Both the position numbers and the translations under genes were made by a program. Below the pieces are notes generated by a model. It was not told where the DNA came from, ran no database searches, and was given only the letters and a program-made list of their open reading frames with translations. Shown here one piece after another: positions 5,954 through 16,796 of a DNA stretch of 32,609 bases. Each line of letters opens with the position of its first letter. The stretch's first letter is position 1. Origin of the DNA: Betaproteobacteria bacterium (GTDB lineage: Bacteria > Pseudomonadota > Gammaproteobacteria > Burkholderiales > Casimicrobiaceae); assembly GCA_013298045.1 (NCBI GenBank), contig JAAFJI010000010.1, positions 1-32,609 of the forward strand. Direction: 5' to 3'.

Positions 5954-8900
5954 TCACGGCGTGAGACCGGCTAGATAAAGCTCAACGTCGCCGGCAGTCG
6001 GGCGAAGCGGCGTGAGAGGTATGCCCGCGATAAGTGTGGGACCAGTCAGACCGAGTAGGTAGCGCACAACAAGCAGACCATCGATGAGCGGCTGCACCTT
6101 CCCATCGCCATTCGCGTCGAGCTTCGGGTTAACGTTGATTAAGTACGTTGCGATGTCCGCAGCGCTGCGTGAACCCGTGCCGGTTGATATCGCAGTGCCC
6201 GTGATCCCGAACATCGCTCGCAACGCCATCACGCCATCGGTCGCAGCATCGTACTTCGTCACCGGATTGCTTGCGTCGATATCAAGCGTGGCGACCGTTC
6301 CTGCTGGTGCGAACGTTGCGAGGAGCTCCGTCGTGCCGGTCACGGTGACGGTGCAGTTGCCGACGCCGGTGCAAGCCCCCAACCAGCCGGTGAATACCGA
6401 GCCGCCGCTTGTCACTGGCGTTACCGTCACCAAAGTTCCATTGGAGACCGTTGTCGCACAGTTCGCGGCGCAGCTCAATCCCGCTGTAGCGCTAGTCGTC
6501 GAGCCGGTGCCTGTGCCTGCGAACTTGATCGATACGGCTTCCTGTGGCGGCTCGGGATCGTCATTGGTAATCGTGCCGACGCCTTGGGAGTCGGCGATGG
6601 TCGCGTTGACGGGCGAGGAAAGATTCACAAAGAACGTCTCGTCGCCCTCGAAAACGATGTCGCCATTGATCGTGACGCTAATCGTGGTCGTTGCCGTGAG
6701 ACCGCCGCTCGGAATGGTGCCAGTGCCGGAGGTGGCGACGTAGTCTCCGCTCGAAGCGGTCGCAGTGTCGTCCGCAGTGGCGTAATTGAACGTCGTGCTC
6801 AATGCGGTGTTGCCAGTGCGGGTGACGGTGAAGGTGAGCGTTTGAGTACCAGAGTTGCCCTCGGCAATCGACACATCGTTGATGCTTAACGTCGGCGCAG
6901 GATCGTCGTTAGTGATTGTGCCGACACCTTGCCCGTCGGCAATGGTCGCGTTAACGGGCGAGGAAAGGTTCACGAAGAAAGTCTCGTTGCCCTCAAAGAC
7001 TGTGTCGCCATTGATCGTGACGCTGATCGTGGTCGTGGCCGTTGTGCCGCCACCGGGAATCGTGCCAAAGCCGGACGCGGCGACGTAATCGCCGCTCGCC
7101 GCCGTCGCGGTGCCGTCCGCGGTGGCGTAGTTAAACGTCACCGTCGAAGCAGTCGCGCCGGTACGAGTGACCGTGAAGGTGAGCGTTTGAGTACCCGCGT
7201 TACCCTCGGCGATCGACACATCGTTGATGCTCAGCGTTGGCGCAGAATCGTCGTTGGTGATCGTGCCGACGCCTTGGCCGTCGGCGATGGTCGCGTTAAC
7301 GGGCGAGGACAGATTCACGAAGAAAGTCTCGTTGCCCTCGAAGACGGTGTCGCCGTTGATCGTGACGCTGATCGTAGTGGACCCCGACGTGCCGCCGCCT
7401 GCAATCGTGCCGGTGCCGGAGGCGGCAACGTAATCGCCGCTGGCGACCGTCGCGGTGCCATCTGCGGTGGCATAGTTAAACGTCACCGTCGAGGCGGTCG
7501 CCCCGGTACGGGTGACCGTGAAGGTGAGCGTTTGAGTACCCGAGTTGCCCTCGGCAATCGACACGTCATTGATACTCAGTGTCGCCAAGGGGTTCACCGT
7601 ATGGCTCGCCGTTCCGCTGCTGCCCGTGTAGTTCGCGTCGCCCGCGTAAGTTGCAGTGAGGGTGCGCGCGCCAAGCGTGGTCAGCGTGATGGCGCAGCTA
7701 CCGGCAGCGACCGTTCCGGTGCATGTCTCGGAGCCGCCGCTGACCGTCACGACGACATTCCCGGTCGGCGTCCCGGAACTCGGCGCATTCGGAGCGACCG
7801 TGTAGTTCACGGTGACCGCCGCATTCAAATCCGAAGGATCGGGTAGGTCGCTCGTAATCGTTGTCGTAGTGCTCGCCTGACTGATGGTGAAGGCGGCGGC
7901 GATCGATTGCGAATCGACGACGGCGGTTGCACTTCCCGCACCCACGCTGGTCGCTGTGAAGGTTGCAGTCGCCGTGCCGTTGCTTTGTATCGCCGACTGC
8001 GCTGCGGAAATCGTGCCGCGCACCGGAAGATTGAACGCAATCGGCGTTCCGATCATCGCGTCGAGATTGACGAGCGCGACGGCTGCAGGTGTCGAGTTTT
8101 GCAGAAAATCGGCGGTGAGGGTGCTCGTTTGACCGACCACGAGCGTCGTTGGGGAGGCGCTATACCGCATCGTCAAATAGGGCGCGACGTTGATCGATCC
8201 ACTCGTCGACAACGATCGATCGCAAGGCGCGCTACCCGAGCCCGCGTTGCAGCCCCACCAGTTGTTGGACGCGGTGACGGTCGCGCCAGCGTTGTGGATG
8301 CCACTGCCGCCTCCAGCTCCAGCGAGGTTGCCCGCAATGCGGTTGAACGTAGCGTTGATCGTGCCAGAAAGCGCTGCGATGGCACCGCCCGCCTGTGTAG
8401 TCCCGGTGTCCGCCCGATTGCCAGAAAGAGTCACCTCATTTATCGTGGTCACAGAACTCGCATCTGAGAATATAGACACGCCGCCGCCCCGCGCCTCGGT
8501 CGATCCGGCAGTTCCCTGCGACACGTTATTGATGATCACCGAGTCGTTGTTGATCGTGAGCGAAGGTCCAAGCGAATGGCCGTTAGCCACACCGCCTCCT
8601 CGGCTGCCCGCAACGTTGCCCGAAATTGTGGTGCTGGAGATGGTGATGGCACCTCCAAAGCTGTGACCCACGAAAATGCCCCCGCCCGAGGTGCTGCTTG
8701 TGTTTCCGGAAATCGTTGAATTGGTGATGGTCACGTTATGTGAATCGCCCGCGAGACGCAGACCGCCGCCCGCGCTGGTAAAGCCGGTTGGGATTGGAAG
8801 CGTGCTGTTATTGCTGATCGTGGTATTGGTAACGGTAAAGGTGCCGTTACTGGGCTGCACGGTGTCCATATTCATGCCGCCGCCATACGCGGTGACCGCA

Positions 8901-10741
8901 GTGTTTTGATCGATGACGACACCGGTCATAGAGAAAGTCTGCGCGCCTGTGCCGCACACGTCGATCCCACCGCCAGTGTGAGCGAAGGTTGTGAAGTTAA
9001 GGGCTTGGGCATTGCGACCAAAACGTATCGTCACACCTGAGATCGAAGCATTGATCGGCGTTGTGCAAATGGGATTCACGGCGATCACTTTGTCAATGCC
9101 ATTTGACGTGTTCGTGCCAGCCTGGATGATGGTGGCGGCGCTGCCCGCGCCGATCAGCGAAATGTCGCGGTTTATATCCAGATCGCCCGTCGCGTTGTTG
9201 TCTTCGTTCACGCCGCCAGCGTTCGCGAGCGTCAGCGTGTAAGTGCCGGCAGGCACATTCACCGTATGAGCACCCGCTAACGCGTTAGCTGCGCTGATCG
9301 CTTCGCGCAAACTGCAATCGGCGTTGCAGGTGCCATCGTTGGTGTCGGTAGTTTTCGTTACGTTGAAGGTAGCCAGCGGCACAGAAGGCACCACCGTTGG
9401 TGCTGCAGCACCCTGATTAAGCACGATCAAACTCGGCAACACAAACGCACTCGTTTGCATCGACAGCGCCGCCACTGGCGCTTGGCTCACGCTCACACTC
9501 GCACGCTTGTGTCCGCTACCCTCGTCCGTGAACACATCGATACTTTGGCTCATTGAGTCAACAACGAGAATGTCATCGGCGTACTGATTCGCGAGTCGCG
9601 CGCGCAGCAATTTCGGCGCAGCTCCGATTGCAAGCGGGCTCGAACGACCTGCCGCAGATTCGTAGAAGCGCCACGGCTGAAGGTCGCTACTCGCAATCCG
9701 TTTTTGCTCGGCGGTCGTACTCGAATGCTGCGCGAGGCGCATCGATCGAGATTCCTCCACCGTGAATGGACGCGTGTCGAGTTCACCGCGTGCGGCTACA
9801 TGCAACTTGCCGTCGTCGGCCAAAAGCGCAATCTTGGTCGCGCCACTGCGTTCCCAGATGAAGTCGCCGAGCGTAAACGCGCGGACTTTGAACGCGGTGG
9901 GAAGCGATTCAAACCGTTTGGCATCACGAACTGGATTGGTCGGGGTGTCGCCATAGCGCACGTAAACGCGACCGCCGCTCAACACAACTACATCGCCGGT
10001 CGAATCACGGCTGAGTTTGCCAATCGCGAGTGCCTCAGCTGGGGCTGCAAGCGCTTGCGATACAGGCGCATTCCAGGATTCGCTTGCGAACGTTAACAAT
10101 CGTGGGCCGCCAACGCCAGACACCGCGACCAATAATTTCGGACGTCCGTCTCGCGAATCGAGCTGCCCTGCCGCGAGCGCGTCGACACCACTGCCCAACT
10201 CGATAGGAACGATCGGCGCGAAACCATCTTTACGTCCCGCCAAAAAATAGGCGACAGAATGACCACGCTGCGCAACCACGACATCGACCCGACCGTCGCC
10301 ATTGAAATCGCCGCTGACCAAGAAATCCGGCGCGATCGGAACCGGCCACTCGGTCGAAGCGCTCTCGAATCCTTGCGGGAAGCTACCGCTGCGCACAAGT
10401 GCGAGTGATTCAGGCGTTGAAGGTGCCCACGCTTCTTTGTTACCTCGATGTAGCGAGACGACGCCGCCACGATCCGTCGAATAGCCGCTCAGTAGATCGG
10501 GAAAGCCGTCGCCGTCAACGTCGCCGCCGACCAGACTCAAGGCCTGACGATTCGCCGCGCGCTTTTGATCGCTATCGCTCAATGCGTAGCCATCTTTGAG
10601 CTGGAGTTTGCTGCCTTCGGTTTGCGTTACTCGAACGATGACCTCGGCAGCTGAGGCCACAGGCAGAATCGCCAAGACGGACGCCACGACAGTGAGCCAG
10701 CTCCAACGCGTTCCGCATCCGCGTGCTAATCGCATGTTCAT
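5954..10741 (-). CDS. Giant exported mosaic protein: FG-GAP, CSLREA beta-helix, Ig-like, three Calx-beta, dockerin-like
   Basis: About 1595 residues. The ATG at 10741 is chosen over the upstream in-frame start at 10813 because GGGGGGAAAC lies just ahead of it and it gives a standard signal peptide cleaved after ASA near residue 30. Domains in order: FG-GAP/VCBS-type calcium loops (DVDGDGFPD near 75, DFNGDGRVD near 147) suggesting a beta-propeller; a CSLREA segment near 470 opening a right-handed beta-helix to about 830 with many NNS/SGN turns; an Ig-like domain around 957-1050; three Calx-beta domains around 1050-1395; an InlB-repeat-like segment with paired cysteines; and a C-terminal dockerin-like region with an EF-hand loop DANGDGKV. 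It is likely secreted or surface-attached, calcium-stabilised and adhesive. No sortase or PEP-CTERM anchor is visible. The transcription unit appears monocistronic. Confidence 0.88.
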   Translation of the reverse strand: MNMRLARGCGTRWSWLTVVASVLAILPVASAAEVIVRVTQTEGSKLQLKDGYALSDSDQKRAANRQALSLVGGDVDGDGFPDLLSGYSTDRGGVVSLHRGNKEAWAPSTPESLALVRSGSFPQGFESASTEWPVPIAPDFLVSGDFNGDGRVDVVVAQRGHSVAYFLAGRKDGFAPIVPIELGSGVDALAAGQLDSRDGRPKLLVAVSGVGGPRLLTFASESWNAPVSQALAAPAEALAIGKLSRDSTGDVVVLSGGRVYVRYGDTPTNPVRDAKRFESLPTAFKVRAFTLGDFIWERSGATKIALLADDGKLHVAARGELDTRPFTVEESRSMRLAQHSSTTAEQKRIASSDLQPWRFYESAAGRSSPLAIGAAPKLLRARLANQYADDILVVDSMSQSIDVFTDEGSGHKRASVSVSQAPVAALSMQTSAFVLPSLIVLNQGAAAPTVVPSVPLATFNVTKTTDTNDGTCNADCSLREAISAANALAGAHTVNVPAGTYTLTLANAGGVNEDNNATGDLDINRDISLIGAGSAATIIQAGTNTSNGIDKVIAVNPICTTPINASISGVTIRFGRNAQALNFTTFAHTGGGIDVCGTGAQTFSMTGVVIDQNTAVTAYGGGMNMDTVQPSNGTFTVTNTTISNNSTLPIPTGFTSAGGGLRLAGDSHNVTITNSTISGNTSSTSGGGIFVGHSFGGAITISSTTISGNVAGSRGGGVANGHSLGPSLTINNDSVIINNVSQGTAGSTEARGGGVSIFSDASSVTTINEVTLSGNRADTGTTQAGGAIAALSGTINATFNRIAGNLAGAGGGSGIHNAGATVTASNNWWGCNAGSGSAPCDRSLSTSGSINVAPYLTMRYSASPTTLVVGQTSTLTADFLQNSTPAAVALVNLDAMIGTPIAFNLPVRGTISAAQSAIQSNGTATATFTATSVGAGSATAVVDSQSIAAAFTISQASTTTTITSDLPDPSDLNAAVTVNYTVAPNAPSSGTPTGNVVVTVSGGSETCTGTVAAGSCAITLTTLGARTLTATYAGDANYTGSSGTASHTVNPLATLSINDVSIAEGNSGTQTLTFTVTRTGATASTVTFNYATADGTATVASGDYVAASGTGTIAGGGTSGSTTISVTINGDTVFEGNETFFVNLSSPVNATIADGQGVGTITNDDSAPTLSINDVSIAEGNAGTQTLTFTVTRTGATASTVTFNYATADGTATAASGDYVAASGFGTIPGGGTTATTTISVTINGDTVFEGNETFFVNLSSPVNATIADGQGVGTITNDDPAPTLSINDVSIAEGNSGTQTLTFTVTRTGNTALSTTFNYATADDTATASSGDYVATSGTGTIPSGGLTATTTISVTINGDIVFEGDETFFVNLSSPVNATIADSQGVGTITNDDPEPPQEAVSIKFAGTGTGSTTSATAGLSCAANCATTVSNGTLVTVTPVTSGGSVFTGWLGACTGVGNCTVTVTGTTELLATFAPAGTVATLDIDASNPVTKYDAATDGVMALRAMFGITGTAISTGTGSRSAADIATYLINVNPKLDANGDGKVQPLIDGLLVVRYLLGLTGPTLIAGIPLTPLRPTAGDVELYLAGLTP
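6561..7595 (-). repeat. Three tandem 345-bp repeats encoding Calx-beta domains
   Basis: Three head-to-tail units of exactly 345 bases begin at 6561, 6906 and 7251 (read on the plus strand). Long stretches are identical or nearly so between units, for example the segments encoding TLSINDVSIAEGN and FFVNLSSPVNATIAD. The nucleotide-level similarity implies recent duplication or gene conversion, and the array may vary in copy number between strains. Confidence 0.9.
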
Positions 10742-11128
10742 TTGTTTCCCCCCGGTTTCAACGCTGCGCCGCAAGAATAGCGCCAATTTGTGACTCGTAG
10801 TGGCTAAATACAAATCGCGGGGTAGTCGATAGAAAAAACGGCGATCAATGCCCTATTAATTTCAAGGTATAGAGCATTAAAATTATTTGTTAATAATGAG
10901 TAAAATTGCTATCAAACGCATATTTGATGGGGCTTATAGCGATTTGTATGTAATGCTCTAGCAGTCAGCAACGAAATTCGCGCGAGATGAAAATCGCGAG
11001 CCCACGTTGCAGCTTCGACCCCCACCGCATTGAAGACGATGCCGAACTCGACAGGCGCTGAACCGTTTGTACTGTTCGCAAACAGCGCCAAACGCTCGCT
11101 CGCGCCTCTCAAGCCCGAACTCAACCGA
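10742..11128. promoter_or_regulatory. AT-rich upstream region of the giant protein gene with stacked inverted repeats
   Basis: A 387-base gap between leuA and the giant protein gene. Visible dyads: TAGAGCATTA at 10870-10879 with its exact inverse at 10951-10960; ATTATT/AATAAT at 10882-10897; ATCAAA/TTTGAT at 10911-10928 inside GCTAT/ATAGC at 10908-10940; GCAACG/CGTTGC at 10968-11010 with an inner CGCG pair; GGCGCTG/CAGCGCC at 11054-11089, which could close the leuA transcript. The AT-rich core fits the promoter of the giant gene, but no -35/-10 pair is convincing. An operator or a structured RNA are both possible. Confidence 0.45.
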
Positions 11129-12844
11129 TCACTTGCCGACGACCACGCCTTCTTTTGCGTTCACGCGCGCTGCGTCGCGGTTAAGGCCCGAGAGAATCGC
11201 TTTGAACGAGGCGGTGACGATGTTCGAATCCATTCCGACGCCATGCAACGTCGGACCATCGCCGACGCGCATTTCGATGTACGTGATCGCGGTCGCATTC
11301 GCACCTTGACCGATCGAATGCTCGTGATAGTCCATTACTTTCACCGGTGCGTGCAGTTCTGCCGCAATCGCAGCGACGAACGCATCAATCGGGCCGTTGC
11401 CGATACCTTTCGCGCTGTGCTTCGCGCCGTAGATGCTCACATCGGTGTACACCTCGACCGCTTCCGGTTTCGATGAGTCTTCCGCGAGTTTGTGGGCAAT
11501 GTATTTGTACGGAATGCCGCGCGAGAGATACTCGCTATCGAACACGTTCCAAATGTCGTCCGCCGACATTTCCTTGCCCGTCGTGTCCATCACCTGCTGT
11601 ACGACTTGCGAGAACTCGATTTGCATTCTGCGTGGCAGATCGACGCCGTATTCGCTTTGCAGAAGATAGCTGATACCACCCTTACCCGATTGCGAATTCA
11701 CGCGAATGATCGCCTCATAACTGCGGCCAACGTCCATCGGATCGATCGGCAGATACGGCATGTTCCAAATCTGCGTGTTGTTCGTTTCGCGCGCAGCAAA
11801 CGCTTTCTTGATCGCGTCCTGATGCGAACCCGAAAAGCTTGTGTACACGAGATCGCCCGCGTACGGATGTCGCGGATGCACGGGGAGTTGATTGCAATAC
11901 TCAACCGTTTTCTTGATCTCATCGATATCGCTGAAATCCAAATTCGGATGCACGCCTTGCGAATACATATTAAGCGCAAGATTCACGAGATCAACGTTAC
12001 CGGTGCGCTCGCCATTGCCAAAGATGCAGCCTTCCACGCGATCTGCGCCCGCCATCAAGGCGAGTTCGGCGGCGGCCGTTCCCGTGCCACGATCGTTATG
12101 CGGATGCAAGGAAATCAAGATGCAATCGCGCCTCGCGACGTTGCGACCAATCCACTCGATTTGATCAGCGTAGCAATTCGGCGTGGTGTTCTCAACTGTC
12201 GTCGGCAAATTGATGATGACTTTACGCTCGGGCGTTGCGCCGTACTCTTCGACCACGGTATCGACCACGCGCTTAACAAAATCCATCTCGGTATTCGAAA
12301 ACATCTCCGGCGAGAACTCGAATCGCCACTCGGTTTCCGGATACTTTTTCATGAGCGCTTTGACTTGCCGCACATGCGGAATCGTCATCTGATCGATCAC
12401 TTCTTGCCGCGATAAACCGAAGACCACGTCGCGCATGATCGGCGCAGTCGCGTGATAGAGGTGAAAAATTGCGCGCTTTGCGCCTTTGAGTGATTCGAAG
12501 GTTCTTTCAACAAACGCCTCGCGCGCGGGCGAGAGCACTTGAATCCACACATCATCCGGGATTTGATTTTTCTCGATCAAGAAGCGAACGAAATCAAAAT
12601 CGGTTTGCGAAGCGGATGGAAAACCGACTTCGATTTCTTTGATGCCAACGCGCACGTTCAGTGCGAACATCTTTTTCTTGCGCTCAACATCCATCGGTTC
12701 GATCAGTGATTGGTTGCCATCGCGCAAATCGGTGGCAAGCCAAATCGGTGGTTTGGTGATGGTTTTATTGGGCCAGGTTCGATCGGTGAACGCGAACGGT
12801 TTATACGCGGCGTATTTAGCGGATGGATTTTTGAGCATGGGCAT
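11129..12844 (-). CDS. leuA: 2-isopropylmalate synthase
   Basis: Catalyses the first committed step of leucine synthesis, condensing acetyl-CoA with 2-oxoisovalerate. The 571-residue length and the N-terminal [11 protein letters not shown]-like opening mark the type 2 (longer) LeuA family. The TIM-barrel metal and catalytic motifs are clear: [11 protein letters not shown] near residue 40 and [11 protein letters not shown] near residue 245, which carries the metal-binding histidines. The last 130 residues form the leucine-sensing regulatory domain, so feedback inhibition is expected. Two ATGs lie close together (12844 and 12838); the first is used, with AGG about nine bases ahead. A short Leu-rich ORF with a strong promoter lies upstream and probably controls it. 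pssA lies further upstream on the same strand, an arrangement common in betaproteobacteria. Confidence 0.97.
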
Positions 12845-12986
12845 GGTCGTCAGCCTTGAAATGAATTTCTAAGAGACGTCAGGCGTTTTTAAGAGCTTCT
12901 CATTCACGCATCACGTACCCTGCGCGGGTTTTGCTGTGACTCTGACGTGCGCGAACGGATTGGGGAGTGGGGCTTGCGATGTACTG
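12845..12986 (-). promoter_or_regulatory. leuA leader RNA region with competing stems
   Basis: In the transcript direction, TTCGCGCA can pair with TGCGTGAA (8 pairs, one G-U), while the overlapping ACGTCAG can pair with CTGACGT. The arms interleave, so the two structures exclude each other, as in an attenuator switch. No clean terminator with a U tract is visible, so a translational or Rho-dependent mechanism may apply. Folding was done by eye only. Confidence 0.4.
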
Positions 12987-13088
12987 CTAGCGCAGCAGCA
13001 GGCTCAGCGCGAATAGCGAACGCAGCGCGAGCGAAATCGGCGACAAGGTCGCGGCGAACATGCTCAAAGGTGCGTTGCGGGAAGTCAT
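12987..13088 (-). CDS. Putative leuA leader peptide (33 residues, Leu-rich)
   Basis: A short ORF directly upstream of leuA, starting at ATG 13088 and ending at TAG 12987. Nine of its 33 residues are leucine, and the last ten read LFALSLLLR preceded by S, so several leucine codons are clustered just before the stop. This is the hallmark of amino-acid attenuation leaders. It has no ribosome-binding site; instead a promoter (TTGCGC, 17-base spacer, TATAGT) ends six bases ahead of the ATG, so the transcript would begin at or within a base of the start codon and be leaderless. Between its stop and leuA lie competing complementary segments. That it is translated is inference; no homologue could be searched for. 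Confidence 0.6.
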   Translation of the reverse strand: MTSRNAPLSMFAATLSPISLALRSLFALSLLLR

Positions 13089-13094
13089 AAATGA

Positions 13095-13123
13095 ACTATA
13101 GCGCGGATTGCTGCGTTGCGCAA
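13095..13123 (-). promoter_or_regulatory. Promoter of the leuA leader
   Basis: On the minus strand a -35 box TTGCGC (13118-13123) and a -10 box TATAGT (13095-13100) are separated by exactly 17 bases. The -10 ends six bases before the leader ATG, so the predicted start point coincides with that ATG. Confidence 0.6.
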
Positions 13124-13152
13124 ATGCGTGTTGCTTCCACGAGCCGACCTAG

Positions 13153-14010
13153 TTAAGTACCACCCTGCGTCTCTTGTGAATCGGATGTTTCGGTCTTTGT
13201 GCCGCTCATCCAATGCATGATCCACACAATGTAGCCCGAGGCAAGATAGCAGACAAACAAACCAAAAAGCGCGATCGCCGGTTGCGCCACGGCTACACCA
13301 ATCGCGAGCACAGCAACCGCGAGCGCCGTAAAGGAAACGGCGCGCTTGCTCATTGATTTGAAACTGTAGAACTTCGCGGTCGTCACCATCGAAATGCCCG
13401 CGATCAAAGTCACCGCGAGTGCCCACCAGGCAACCGCCTTGCCTTCGATGTCGTGGTCGTCCATGAGCCAGACAAAGCCCGCAACGATGGCCGCTGCAGC
13501 AGGCGATGGCAAACCGTTGAAGAAACGCTTATCGACGATGCCAATCTGCACGTTGAATCGGGCGAGTCGCAGCGCGGCGCACGCTGCGTAAACAAAGGCG
13601 ACCGCCATTGCAAGGCGATTCGACGGCAGTGTTCGCAACGACCATTCGTAGACGATGAGCGCTGGTGCTGCGCCGAACGACACCATGTCAGCCAAGCTAT
13701 CGAGCTCTGCGCCAAACGCGGTTTGCGTGCCCGTCATGCGCGCAACACGACCGTCGAGGCTGTCCATAATCATCGCGGCGAAAATAAGTCCAGCTGCAAC
13801 ATCAAAGCGCAAATTCATCGCTTGCACAATGCCGAAGAAACCGCAGAACAAACATCCGAGCGTGAATAAGCTCGGCAGCGCGAACATGCCGCGACGACGC
13901 AGTTTGAGTTTTTGCGCAGCGCGCTTCTCGCGCAGCAAATCTTTGCCGTCGTCGAGCACCGCGAATGTGTCGTCGTCGTTGTTTTGCGGAGGTGTTGGAG
14001 CGTTTGACAA
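13153..14010 (-). CDS. pssA: CDP-diacylglycerol-serine O-phosphatidyltransferase
   Basis: Inner-membrane enzyme that makes phosphatidylserine from CDP-diacylglycerol and serine, the precursor of phosphatidylethanolamine. The full CDP-alcohol phosphatidyltransferase signature is present: D83-x2-D86-G87-x2-A90-R91-x8-G100-x3-D104-x3-D108. Multiple hydrophobic helices follow to about residue 265, and a basic stretch (LKLRRRG) precedes the first helix, as in other PssA proteins. The farthest available start is TTG at 14010 without a clear ribosome site; the internal ATG at 13887 would remove the basic segment, so the start is uncertain. leuA follows downstream in the common betaproteobacterial order, but a separate promoter for the leuA leader lies between them. 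Confidence 0.92.
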   Translation of the reverse strand: MSNAPTPPQNNDDDTFAVLDDGKDLLREKRAAQKLKLRRRGMFALPSLFTLGCLFCGFFGIVQAMNLRFDVAAGLIFAAMIMDSLDGRVARMTGTQTAFGAELDSLADMVSFGAAPALIVYEWSLRTLPSNRLAMAVAFVYAACAALRLARFNVQIGIVDKRFFNGLPSPAAAAIVAGFVWLMDDHDIEGKAVAWWALAVTLIAGISMVTTAKFYSFKSMSKRAVSFTALAVAVLAIGVAVAQPAIALFGLFVCYLASGYIVWIMHWMSGTKTETSDSQETQGGT

Positions 14011-14101: not shown

Positions 14102-15049
14102 TTAGACCCAACGAGAGCGAGCAGCCAGCGTGAGCGGGGTCAACATGTCGCCCTCTTTCTCACGCTTCGCGACCAGCGTTTCCTTCGCTTTGCGCAGCGT
14201 TTCTTGTAACGCCGGACCGCGTTTGAGCGCAACGGAGACCGACAATGCGTCGATCAAGGTAAGTTGCGCGAGACGACCGACCATTGGTGAATACACGTCA
14301 GGATCTTCTTCGACATCGACTGCAAGTGCGATGTCCGCGAGTTTTGCCAGTTGCGACGCGCGCGCTGTCACCGCGATCACGGTTGCCCCTGCGCGCTGCG
14401 CGAGTTCGCAGGTTTGAATCATGTCGCGTGTGCGCCCGGTGCGCGAGATCGCGACGACCACATCTTCGTGGGTCAAGAGCGCTGCCGATTGCACTTGCCA
14501 ATGTGGGTCGTTATAGGCAATCGTGTGCACGCCCATTAAGAAAAATTTGTGCTGCGCATCCATCGCAACAACGCCGGAATTGCCGACGCCGTAGAACTCG
14601 ATTTTCTTCGCGCGTGAGAGCGCTTCGGCAGCACGTTCGAAAATTTTGGGATCGACTTGATTGCGCATTGAAATGAGTGTCGCAATCGAGCGGTCAAACA
14701 CTTTCGCAATCACCTCGGCAGCGCTATCCTGCGGCGACACATCGGTGTGCACATAAGGCACGCCGGTCGCGAGACTTTTCGCGAGCGCAACCTTGAACGC
14801 TTTGAAGCCGGTGAAGCCGAGTCCCTGACAGAAGCGCGCAATCGTCGGATCGGTCACGCCCACCGCCTCAGCTAACTCCGCAATCGCCATATGTGCGACG
14901 CGATTGGGTTGCCCAAGCACGTAGCTCGCCACACGTTGCTCGCTCGGTCGCAGATTCAGTCGCACGGCAGTGATGCGCGACAACAGCGCATCGCCTTCGT
15001 GCGATTCTTCTTTTGGTTCTACGACTTTTATTTTTGCGGTGCTTTTCAT
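14102..15049 (-). CDS. hexR: HexR-type transcriptional regulator (RpiR family)
   Basis: Regulator of central sugar metabolism, 315 residues. An N-terminal RpiR helix-turn-helix is visible (AELAEAVGVTDPTIARF), followed by a SIS sugar-phosphate-binding domain (FYGVGNSGVVAMDAQHKF, then VVVAISRTGRTRDM). In Pseudomonas and relatives HexR senses 2-keto-3-deoxy-6-phosphogluconate and represses zwf and Entner-Doudoroff genes. The ATG at 15049 is chosen over an earlier in-frame start because GGAGGAA lies four bases ahead and the upstream residues look unlike the family. zwf lies immediately upstream on the same strand, and a HexR-type palindrome lies ahead of zwf, supporting this assignment over other RpiR regulators. 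Confidence 0.88.
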   Translation of the reverse strand: MKSTAKIKVVEPKEESHEGDALLSRITAVRLNLRPSEQRVASYVLGQPNRVAHMAIAELAEAVGVTDPTIARFCQGLGFTGFKAFKVALAKSLATGVPYVHTDVSPQDSAAEVIAKVFDRSIATLISMRNQVDPKIFERAAEALSRAKKIEFYGVGNSGVVAMDAQHKFFLMGVHTIAYNDPHWQVQSAALLTHEDVVVAISRTGRTRDMIQTCELAQRAGATVIAVTARASQLAKLADIALAVDVEEDPDVYSPMVGRLAQLTLIDALSVSVALKRGPALQETLRKAKETLVAKREKEGDMLTPLTLAARSRWV

Positions 15050-15124
15050 TGTGTTCCTCCAAAACCTATTCCGCCAGGTAAGCGCCGAGTCAATCGGCGA
15101 GCGGGATGCAGTGCGAGGCGGCGT

Positions 15125-15155
15125 CGAGCGACGTGTACTTTTGTACACGAGCTCG
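15125..15155. repeat. Inverted repeat between zwf and hexR
   Basis: A perfect 7-bp dyad (CGTGTAC / GTACACG at 15132-15149) with a TTTT loop is extended by CGAGC/GCTCG after a small internal loop. It may be a hairpin separating zwf from hexR or an operator for hexR. There is no T tract after the stem, so simple intrinsic termination is unlikely. Confidence 0.5.
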
Positions 15156-15216
15156 GCGACAACGAAGCAGCATTTACGCAAAATCGCGCCCGCGCAGCCA
15201 TTGAATCGACGCTTAC

Positions 15217-16665
15217 CTAAACGCCCATCTCCTCATGCCACGCCGTTCCCTCTTTCGCAGTCAACCGACTCGCGGCAGGCGGCCCCCACGTCCCAGCCGT
15301 ATAGCCAATCGGCGCGACGGGATCGTTTTTCCAATGATCGAGCACCGGTTGCACCCAACGCCACGCGGCATCTGCTTCATCGTTACGCATGAAGAGCGTC
15401 GGATTGCCGCGCAGCACATCGAGCAACAAACGCTCGTACGCATCCTGCCGACGCTCGTGAAAGAAGTCTTTGAAATCGAGATCGAGATGCACTTCGCGCA
15501 CACGCATGCCGTCGCCCGGCGCTTTCGCCATCGTGTAGAGCCGCACGTTTTCTTCCGGTTGCAAGGTAATCACCAGGCGATTTGGCGAGAGCGCGCCGGG
15601 GAAAATCGAATGCGGCGGTGCTTTGAAATTGATCACGACCTCGGCGCGACGCTCCGCCATGCGTTTGCCGGTGCGAAGGAAGAACGGAACGCCCGCCCAG
15701 CGCCAGTTGGCGATTTCTGCGCGCAGTGCGACATAGGTTTCGGTGATCGAGGTTTTCGGCACGCCCTCCTCGCTCGCGTACGCAGGAACAGTTTGTCCGG
15801 CGAGCGTGCCACCACGATACTGACCGCGCACAACGTGTTCTCGCAACGATTCCTGCGTCCACGGCTTCAAGCTGCGTACGACTTGCAGCTTCTCGTCGCG
15901 CACTGCATCGGGATCGAGACTAGACGGTGGCTCCATCGCGGTGATGCAAAGCAAGTTGAGCATGTGGTTTTGCACCATGTCGCGGAACGCGCCGGTGTTG
16001 TCATAGAACTCGCCTCGCGTTTCAACGCCGACCGTTTCCGCGATCGTAATTTGCACATCGCGCACCCAGGTGCGATTCCACAAGGGTTCCAACAAAGTGT
16101 TGCCGAAGCGCAGTGCTAAGAGGTTTTGCACCGTCTCTTTACCGAGGTAATGATCGATGCGATAAACCTGCTTTTCGTCGAAGGCTTTGAGCACGACTTC
16201 GTTGATTTCGCGCGAGCTTTGCAGATCGCGGCCGAGTGGTTTTTCGAGGACGATACGCGTCTCGGGCGTATTGAGCCCCGCCGCTTTCAACCCATCGATG
16301 ATTGCAGGAAAGAGCGACGGCCCGACCGAAAGATAAAACACCGTTTGACTCGGTCGCTCATCGAGCGAGCGTTTCATCTGTGCATATTGCGCATGGTTGT
16401 TCACATCGAGCGGAAAATAGGTGAGCCGCGCGAGAAATTTTTCGACGAGCTTCGCTTCGCATTTTTCGGGGACGAAGCGTTGCAGCGCTTCGCCGACTTT
16501 TTGCCGAAATGCGGCATCGTCGAGTTGTTGCCGCGCCGCCGCGATGATGCGACCACTCGCACGTAAATTGCCGTCGGTTTCCGCGAGGAACAGTGCGGGA
16601 TAGAGTTTGCGCAGCGCGAGATCGCCTGTGCCGCCGAAGATGACTAAATCAAACGTTTCGTTCAT
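15217..16665 (-). CDS. zwf: Glucose-6-phosphate 1-dehydrogenase
   Basis: Oxidises glucose-6-phosphate to 6-phosphogluconolactone with NAD(P)+, feeding the pentose-phosphate and Entner-Doudoroff routes. With the ATG at 16665 it has 482 residues, normal for bacterial Zwf. The nucleotide-binding motif FGGTGDLALRKLYPAL lies at the N terminus, and the active-site signature RIDHYLGKE lies near residue 168, with its catalytic histidine and lysine. A farther in-frame start at 16770 is rejected because it would put the HexR-type operator (16715-16729) inside the coding region and add residues unlike the family; however, the ribosome site at 16665 is poor. pgi is divergent and hexR lies downstream on the same strand, so the three form a sugar-phosphate node. 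Confidence 0.96.
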   Translation of the reverse strand: MNETFDLVIFGGTGDLALRKLYPALFLAETDGNLRASGRIIAAARQQLDDAAFRQKVGEALQRFVPEKCEAKLVEKFLARLTYFPLDVNNHAQYAQMKRSLDERPSQTVFYLSVGPSLFPAIIDGLKAAGLNTPETRIVLEKPLGRDLQSSREINEVVLKAFDEKQVYRIDHYLGKETVQNLLALRFGNTLLEPLWNRTWVRDVQITIAETVGVETRGEFYDNTGAFRDMVQNHMLNLLCITAMEPPSSLDPDAVRDEKLQVVRSLKPWTQESLREHVVRGQYRGGTLAGQTVPAYASEEGVPKTSITETYVALRAEIANWRWAGVPFFLRTGKRMAERRAEVVINFKAPPHSIFPGALSPNRLVITLQPEENVRLYTMAKAPGDGMRVREVHLDLDFKDFFHERRQDAYERLLLDVLRGNPTLFMRNDEADAAWRWVQPVLDHWKNDPVAPIGYTAGTWGPPAASRLTAKEGTAWHEEMGV

Positions 16666-16714
16666 AGTTGAAAGCAGTGAATTCGCCGTAATCGTAGCAG
16701 CGTTTGTGCATTTT

Positions 16715-16729
16715 TGTAGTAAAACAACA
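16715..16729. promoter_or_regulatory. HexR-type operator between zwf and pgi
   Basis: The 15-base element TGTAGTAAAACAACA matches a palindrome TGTAGTAAAACTACA at 14 of 15 positions. That resembles the HexR recognition pattern known in proteobacteria (TGTA-rich half sites around an A/T centre). It lies 50 bases ahead of the zwf ATG and 68 bases ahead of the pgi start, so it could control both genes. Confidence 0.6.
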
Positions 16730-16796
16730 AGAAACTCATTGAAAAAACTAACCCCTTCCTCATTAGCCATAATTTATATGGGCAACGAGCGTATTT

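Follow-up and report, generated by a model that had tools for sequence, protein, structure and literature searches.

A putative leaderless leader open reading frame with clustered leucine codons upstream of leuA in Casimicrobiaceae and other Burkholderiales

Organization of the leuA locus

The DNA analysed here (hereafter the window) is a stretch of 32,609 nucleotides from a Betaproteobacteria bacterium (GTDB order Burkholderiales, family Casimicrobiaceae; GenBank assembly GCA_013298045.1, contig JAAFJI010000010.1, positions 1 to 32,609). The relatives of its LeuA likewise point to a betaproteobacterium. Its minus strand carries leuA downstream of the codirectional pssA, and the features of this region are listed in Table 1. 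The -35 and -10 boxes of a candidate promoter are separated by a spacer of 17 nt, and six nucleotides (TCATTT) lie between the -10 box and an ATG at position 13088. The open reading frame (ORF) opened by this ATG encodes MTSRNAPLSMFAATLSPISLALRSLFALSLLLR, which contains nine Leu residues, four of them among the C-terminal six (LSLLLR). The Leu codons are mostly CTG and are not rare. A leader ORF with codons for the product amino acid clustered near its stop, ahead of a biosynthetic gene, is the arrangement by which attenuators are recognized, and this arrangement is found here. When the coordinates were re-read, the promoter geometry and the composition of the ORF given in a preliminary description of this DNA proved to be right.

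Table 1. Features of the leuA upstream region and flanking genes
Feature	Position in the window	Strand	Basis
pssA, codirectional upstream neighbour	13153..14010	-	TIGR00473 5e-35, above cut-off (NCBIfam)
-35 box TTGCGC	13118..13123	-	sequence; TTGA/TTGC clustered 31-34 nt before the leader ATG of relatives
-10 box TATAGT	13095..13100	-	sequence; TAnnnT at 6-8 nt in 55/78 order-level ORF-bearing regions
Leader ORF of 33 codons, predicted to be leaderless (AUG at +1)	12987..13088	-	sequence, shuffles, conservation
Leu cluster (LSLLL, codons 28-32)	12993..13007	-	sequence; near-stop Leu runs in 121/176 leuA upstream regions
Hairpin 1, Leu codons with stop-codon region	12984..12998	-	registers CUGC-GCUA-GCAG or CUGCU-GCGCU-AGCAG
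C-rich, G-poor linker after leader stop	12962..12972	-	base composition
Hairpin 2, stem 12957-12948 / 12910-12901	12901..12957	-	covariation in clade A
Crossing stem 12948-12942 / 12882-12876 (ACGTCAG/CTGACGT)	12876..12948	-	clade-A comparison
Candidate leuA Shine-Dalgarno AAGG	12854..12857	-	sequence
leuA, long-form 2-isopropylmalate synthase	11129..12844 (ATG at 12844)	-	NF002991 8.7e-255, TIGR00970 8.4e-229, both scores above cut-off (NCBIfam)

Two absences pointed out in the preliminary description were borne out: no Shine-Dalgarno sequence precedes the leader ATG in the window, and a scan of the minus strand from 12700 to 13400 for terminator-like sites found none and no U-tract. A consensus scan of the same interval also gave no sigma-70-like site; its threshold (9 of 12 matches) is stricter than the score of the window promoter, and the promoter call rests on conservation. 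Among 5000 dinucleotide shuffles of positions 12845-13152, an ATG-initiated ORF whose last six residues include at least four Leu appeared in 11, and such an ORF together with a -10-like box 5-8 nt upstream appeared in none.

Some other features of the assembly were observed. A protein of 1619 residues with three Calx-beta stretches, an Ig-like domain and FG-GAP repeats is encoded at 5954-10813 (minus strand), and a HexR-like regulator, whose best match is below the curated cut-off, adjoins zwf at 14102-16770 (minus strand). The assembly also contains, at the end of a contig (G000:C250:1866-3167), a second leuA fragment whose protein is 89% identical to that of the window; it may reflect a strain mixture or a second copy.

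Conservation of the leader ORF

Upstream regions of long-form leuA were collected from genomes of the genus, the family and the order and from named genomes; duplicates, loci without a LeuA anchor and loci with less than 250 nt upstream were dropped, which left 176 regions. An ORF was counted when it was on the sense strand and had at least four Leu within seven residues inside its last 14 codons. Such an ORF was present ahead of leuA in 121 of the 176 regions, compared with none of the 176 on the antisense strand and a mean of 6.25 (range 1-10) in 20 dinucleotide shuffles. These counts pass a check proposed in the preliminary description, whether the Leu codons are conserved among relatives. 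The 55 negative regions (22 among the 100 order-level regions) have to be read against a strict test, which misses L003, the closest relative in LeuA (its leader ends LRSLLR), and L009 (ending ALLLRSQRK). With these two assigned by eye, all 13 genomes of the window's genus that have a readable upstream region (of 17) carry such an ORF. Furthermore, the share of CTA among the near-stop Leu codons is 0.57 in group II (14 sequences) and 0.62 in group III (18 sequences), versus 0 in three other groups; Leu is kept while its codons change, and thus it is the amino acid, not the DNA, that is conserved.

These comparisons bear on two other views of the ORF. It might encode a small hydrophobic protein that has a separate function and is not a sensor, as some relatives carry long Leu-rich ORFs and peTrpL of Sinorhizobium meliloti, in the part of the report consulted (PMC7298713), is an attenuator peptide that acts in trans; however, conservation in the relatives is confined to the Leu run and the C-terminal residues, beside leuA, and does not extend along the peptide, and we consider this view very improbable. 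Still less probable, to the point that we give it hardly any weight, is that leuA simply has a plain promoter and a long untranslated leader in which the ORF arose by chance. Folding of the whole leader is no better than that of its own shuffles (z 0.01), as such a leader would allow, but the shuffling results, the sense-antisense comparison and the conserved spacing between promoter and ATG (see below) all stand against chance.

Conservation of the predicted leaderless layout

For the position of the promoter we used the order-level set, 100 regions that are part of the 136 order-level genomes with a match. The ORF was present in 78 of them, belonging to 34 genera. A TAnnnT box ending 6-8 nt before an in-frame ATG was found in 55 of these 78 (20 genera), and in 47 of the 55 a TTG precedes the box, with 15-19 nt as spacer. 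In ten control windows of three offsets each, the box occurred in 0 to 6 of the 78 regions, and therefore the layout expected of a leaderless message is conserved. An independent count over 78 regions that contain just one in-frame ATG, in which a box required at least 4 of 6 matches and offsets 0 to 49 were scanned, gave 35 boxes at 6-8 nt versus 10 at the other 47 offsets; in these regions TTGA or TTGC was found 52 times at a distance of 31-34 nt from the leader ATG, on its upstream side. A Shine-Dalgarno core preceded 4 of 78 leader ATGs versus 39 of 78 leuA starts, where leuA had more chances because any nearby ATG was counted. In the window's genus the box lies at 6-7 nt in 12 of 13 regions, L015 having neither the box nor the promoter spacing. 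The box is missing from 23 order-level regions, and seven of these, in a Burkholderiaceae/Alcaligenaceae-like group, were seen by eye to have TTTGACT 7-8 nt before the ATG, outside the box count. In the named and other regions (76, including Actinobacteria and Alphaproteobacteria), the box was found in 13 of the 43 that have the ORF.

The promoter geometry and the absence of a Shine-Dalgarno sequence both fit a leaderless mRNA, and the transcript is predicted to start at the leader AUG (position 13088). Taken with the conservation of the Leu run, the comparisons strongly support a predicted leaderless, Leu-rich leader ORF of the attenuator type before leuA.

Several searches and observations concern other leaders. 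A class-wide pattern search over 369 genomes, mostly of other orders, found nothing and is uninformative. A crude pattern for leaderless leaders of the Trp type gave 13 matches in 64 genomes of the family versus 22 in a backwards control, and these candidates were rejected. At some loci (L018, L059, L067, L170, L186, L194, L203, L219, L226 and L032) an ORF with a Leu run lies about 210-350 nt before leuA and is followed by a second element, of a different type, with a stem resembling GGTTGCC...GGCAACC, which by eye may represent tandem leaders. At L066, L072, L084, L091, L107, L220 and similar loci, the leader tail is P(I/T)GC(R/L)A and a conserved RNA, GTGGCAG..CGGCAGCC..GCCAC, precedes leuA; these loci are Burkholderiaceae/Alcaligenaceae/Oxalobacteraceae-like, and those scanned gave no Rfam match.

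RNA structure downstream of the leader

The CTGC/GCAG core of hairpin 1 is paired and invariant in all five sequences of the window's clade (clade A), and a similar hairpin lies at the same place in all 8 sequences of the sister clade (group B), all 23 of group C and all 8 of group D, which belongs to a different genus of the same family. The pairs of hairpin 1 hardly vary and so say little about covariation. Between positions +4 and +28 past the stop, mean C and G contents are 0.45 and 0.10 in clade A, 0.61 and 0.15 in group B and 0.47 and 0.15 in group C; the linker of group D is T-rich.

Farther downstream, hairpin 2 has changes on both sides in 5 of its 10 pairs among the five clade-A sequences, with 88% of cells paired. 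A script that chooses the best arms, and is therefore biased towards pairing, found 8 to 10 of the 10 pairs in each of the five. The crossing stem (GTCAG...CTGAC) is present in all five as well, and five of its six counted pairs are invariant. For hairpin 2 and the crossing stem together, 90% of cells are paired versus 26-48% in slid controls, and their covariation score was reached by none of 500 shuffles. The preliminary description had called for a covariation check on the stem arms, and in the window's clade hairpin 2 came through it. It had also spoken of two mutually exclusive stems: two conserved stems there are, but they cross and share one base, and since both are conserved in clade A they may be either mutually exclusive or parts of a pseudoknot. 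In clade B a nested hairpin occupies the position of hairpin 2 and covaries as well. A consensus fold of the 23 group C sequences kept hairpin 1 only, and hairpin 2 in that group was set aside as unsupported by the alignment. Neither the window nor any of 20 related loci matched an Rfam 15 family at the gathering score.

A possible attenuation mechanism

On the comparative evidence, the elements present at the locus are the putative promoter, an AUG at the expected start, the Leu cluster, hairpin 1 and the covarying hairpin 2. The best reading of these elements, and one that we hold to be probable, is ribosome-mediated leucine attenuation of leuA from the leaderless leader ORF. RNA polymerase would start at the leader AUG and a ribosome would begin on this 5' AUG. 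When Leu-tRNA is scarce, the ribosome would stall in the Leu run and open hairpin 1, and the polymerase would proceed into leuA; when leucine is ample, the ribosome would reach the stop and depart, and transcription would end before leuA. The preliminary description had taken the locus for an attenuator; the comparisons bear out a predicted leaderless, Leu-rich leader ORF, but folding with a ribosome mask gave no clear switch.

We lean slightly towards a final step at the level of transcription. The U-tract by which the transcriptional class is recognized was found neither in the window nor in any of the five clade-A members, and termination in this clade would thus need Rho or another aid. 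A T-run or U-tract does accompany the final hairpin in 8 of 8 sequences of group D, which gives the clearest picture of an attenuator, and in 10 of 14 of group II. In L142 of group D, one change in each of three segments leaves the leader-end:arm and arm:arm pairings both intact, a compensatory pattern seen in this single case.

One form that the final step might take in the window's clade, and hence a sub-case of the preferred reading, is attenuation by Rho, in which Rho, once the ribosome has come off at the stop, would bind the C-rich stretch beyond it and terminate transcription ahead of leuA, unless stalling at the Leu codons or folding of the RNA prevents it. The clade lacks a U-tract, the 60-nt stretch with the most C over G among those searched begins 3 nt past the stop (26 C, 10 G), the linker is C-rich and G-poor in groups A, B and C, and a mechanism of the Rho type is proposed for mycobacterial cys leaders in the available portion of PMC1262725. 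However, C-richness suits Rho but is not a test of it, the linker of group D is T-rich, and we found no step at which a stalled ribosome would block Rho; we regard it as possible but doubtful.

Folding gave little help with the switch itself. As proof of a switch, folding of the single sequence was abandoned in view of the z value above, and folding with a ribosome mask was equivocal: the probability of hairpin 2 was about 0.31 in the free RNA, 0.67 when the mask represented a ribosome stalled at the Leu run and 0.05 when it represented one at the stop. A hairpin that is more probable at the Leu stall than at the stop has the wrong sign for a terminator. The model allows nested pairs only, so that the crossing stem cannot be represented in it. 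In duplexes between leader and arm, a sequence's own arm was no better than arms swapped within the group (A, B and C), a control in which the hairpin-2 script picked different hairpins in a number of rows (L013, L027, L144 and L145 among them). Leader:arm covariation was not significant either, being reached by 250 of 500 shuffles in group B and 101 of 500 in group D. Also counting against the attenuation reading are the use of CTG, not a rare codon, for most leader leucines, the regions in which no ORF was counted and the absence of the promoter spacing in L015.

Alternatively, attenuation might be translational, the RNA hiding the start of leuA until a stalled ribosome frees it, similar to the leaderless cysteine leaders of mycobacteria; the accessible text of PMC9031893 cites leaderless attenuators that control translation further downstream, and the Shine-Dalgarno region of leuA is unpaired with a probability of only 0.43-0.48. 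This value, however, is the same over five ribosome states, and in the window 56 nt separate hairpin 2 from the ATG of leuA. Pairing of the Leu run with the Shine-Dalgarno sequence or start of leuA, of the LEU-element type, was tried and rejected, as it was not above shuffles in groups A, B, C or D. Translational attenuation is thus unlikely in our view.

Relation to known leader peptides

The leu leader of enterobacteria has a ribosome-binding site. This leader and LeuL of Epsilonproteobacteria resemble the window in having Leu codons towards the end of a leader peptide ahead of leuA, but epsilonproteobacterial leaders were sought through an upstream ribosome-binding site according to the portions consulted of PMC6123439 and PMC3847290. 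LeuL in Epsilonproteobacteria is also described in PMC11955535, and PMC6123439 describes leader peptides before branched-chain genes as known from Gram-negatives broadly, as far as these texts were available.

The preliminary description called a leaderless leader unusual, and this was overstated. LeuL1 of Streptomyces lividans is a leaderless, Leu-rich leader directly before leuA, with no typical Rho-independent terminator noted in the part of PMC8079986 consulted, which also shows leaderless leader peptides ahead of further Streptomyces genes. It differs from the window in its length of 15 residues, in being actinobacterial and in having a start from RNA-seq, compared with a predicted start here. 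The LEU element of Actinobacteria (PMC1262725, available portion) likewise has a leader ORF with a Leu run before leuA, a proposed conserved pseudoknot and no obvious terminator, but in its base stem the Leu run is paired to the Shine-Dalgarno sequence of leuA, a pairing that was not above shuffles here. Among proteobacteria, the attenuator RNA of S. meliloti trpL begins at the leader ATG; it serves tryptophan, and a regular terminator is described for it (PMC7298713, in part). The mycobacterial polycysteine attenuators, as cited in the accessible parts of PMC9031893 and PMC13236596, are leaderless small ORFs with a run of cognate codons, but they respond to cysteine and act by translational attenuation. 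A leaderless leader peptide also precedes ilvB of Corynebacterium diphtheriae in the text available of PMC5784534.

Leaderless leader peptides are thus already known, including before leuA. In the literature searched, which was mostly without subscription papers and supplements, we found no leader ORF of a betaproteobacterial leuA. Leaderless messages are reported from Burkholderia and Cupriavidus, with no leader peptide terms in the accessible portions of the reports (PMC4603805, PMC9045368, PMC7563307), and in Cupriavidus 4.67% of primary start sites are of this kind (PMC7563307).

Implications

Leaderless starts are usually treated as marginal in betaproteobacteria. Tentatively, and at less than even confidence, we propose that across the order leaderless initiation is a selected part of leuA attenuation, in which the first ribosome would have to begin on the 5' AUG as this emerges from the polymerase and would thereby set the coupling required by the switch, and that the readout in clade A would be a crossing stem or pseudoknot without an intrinsic terminator, a layout that we did not find described for proteobacteria in the literature searched. 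Because a ribosome-binding site can be added to such a leader and the effect measured, the system offers a clean test of the role of leaderless initiation in attenuation. Gene finders that rely on ribosome-binding sites would miss leaders of this kind. Our results suggest that a large group of betaproteobacteria may place leuA under leucine control from leaderless messages.
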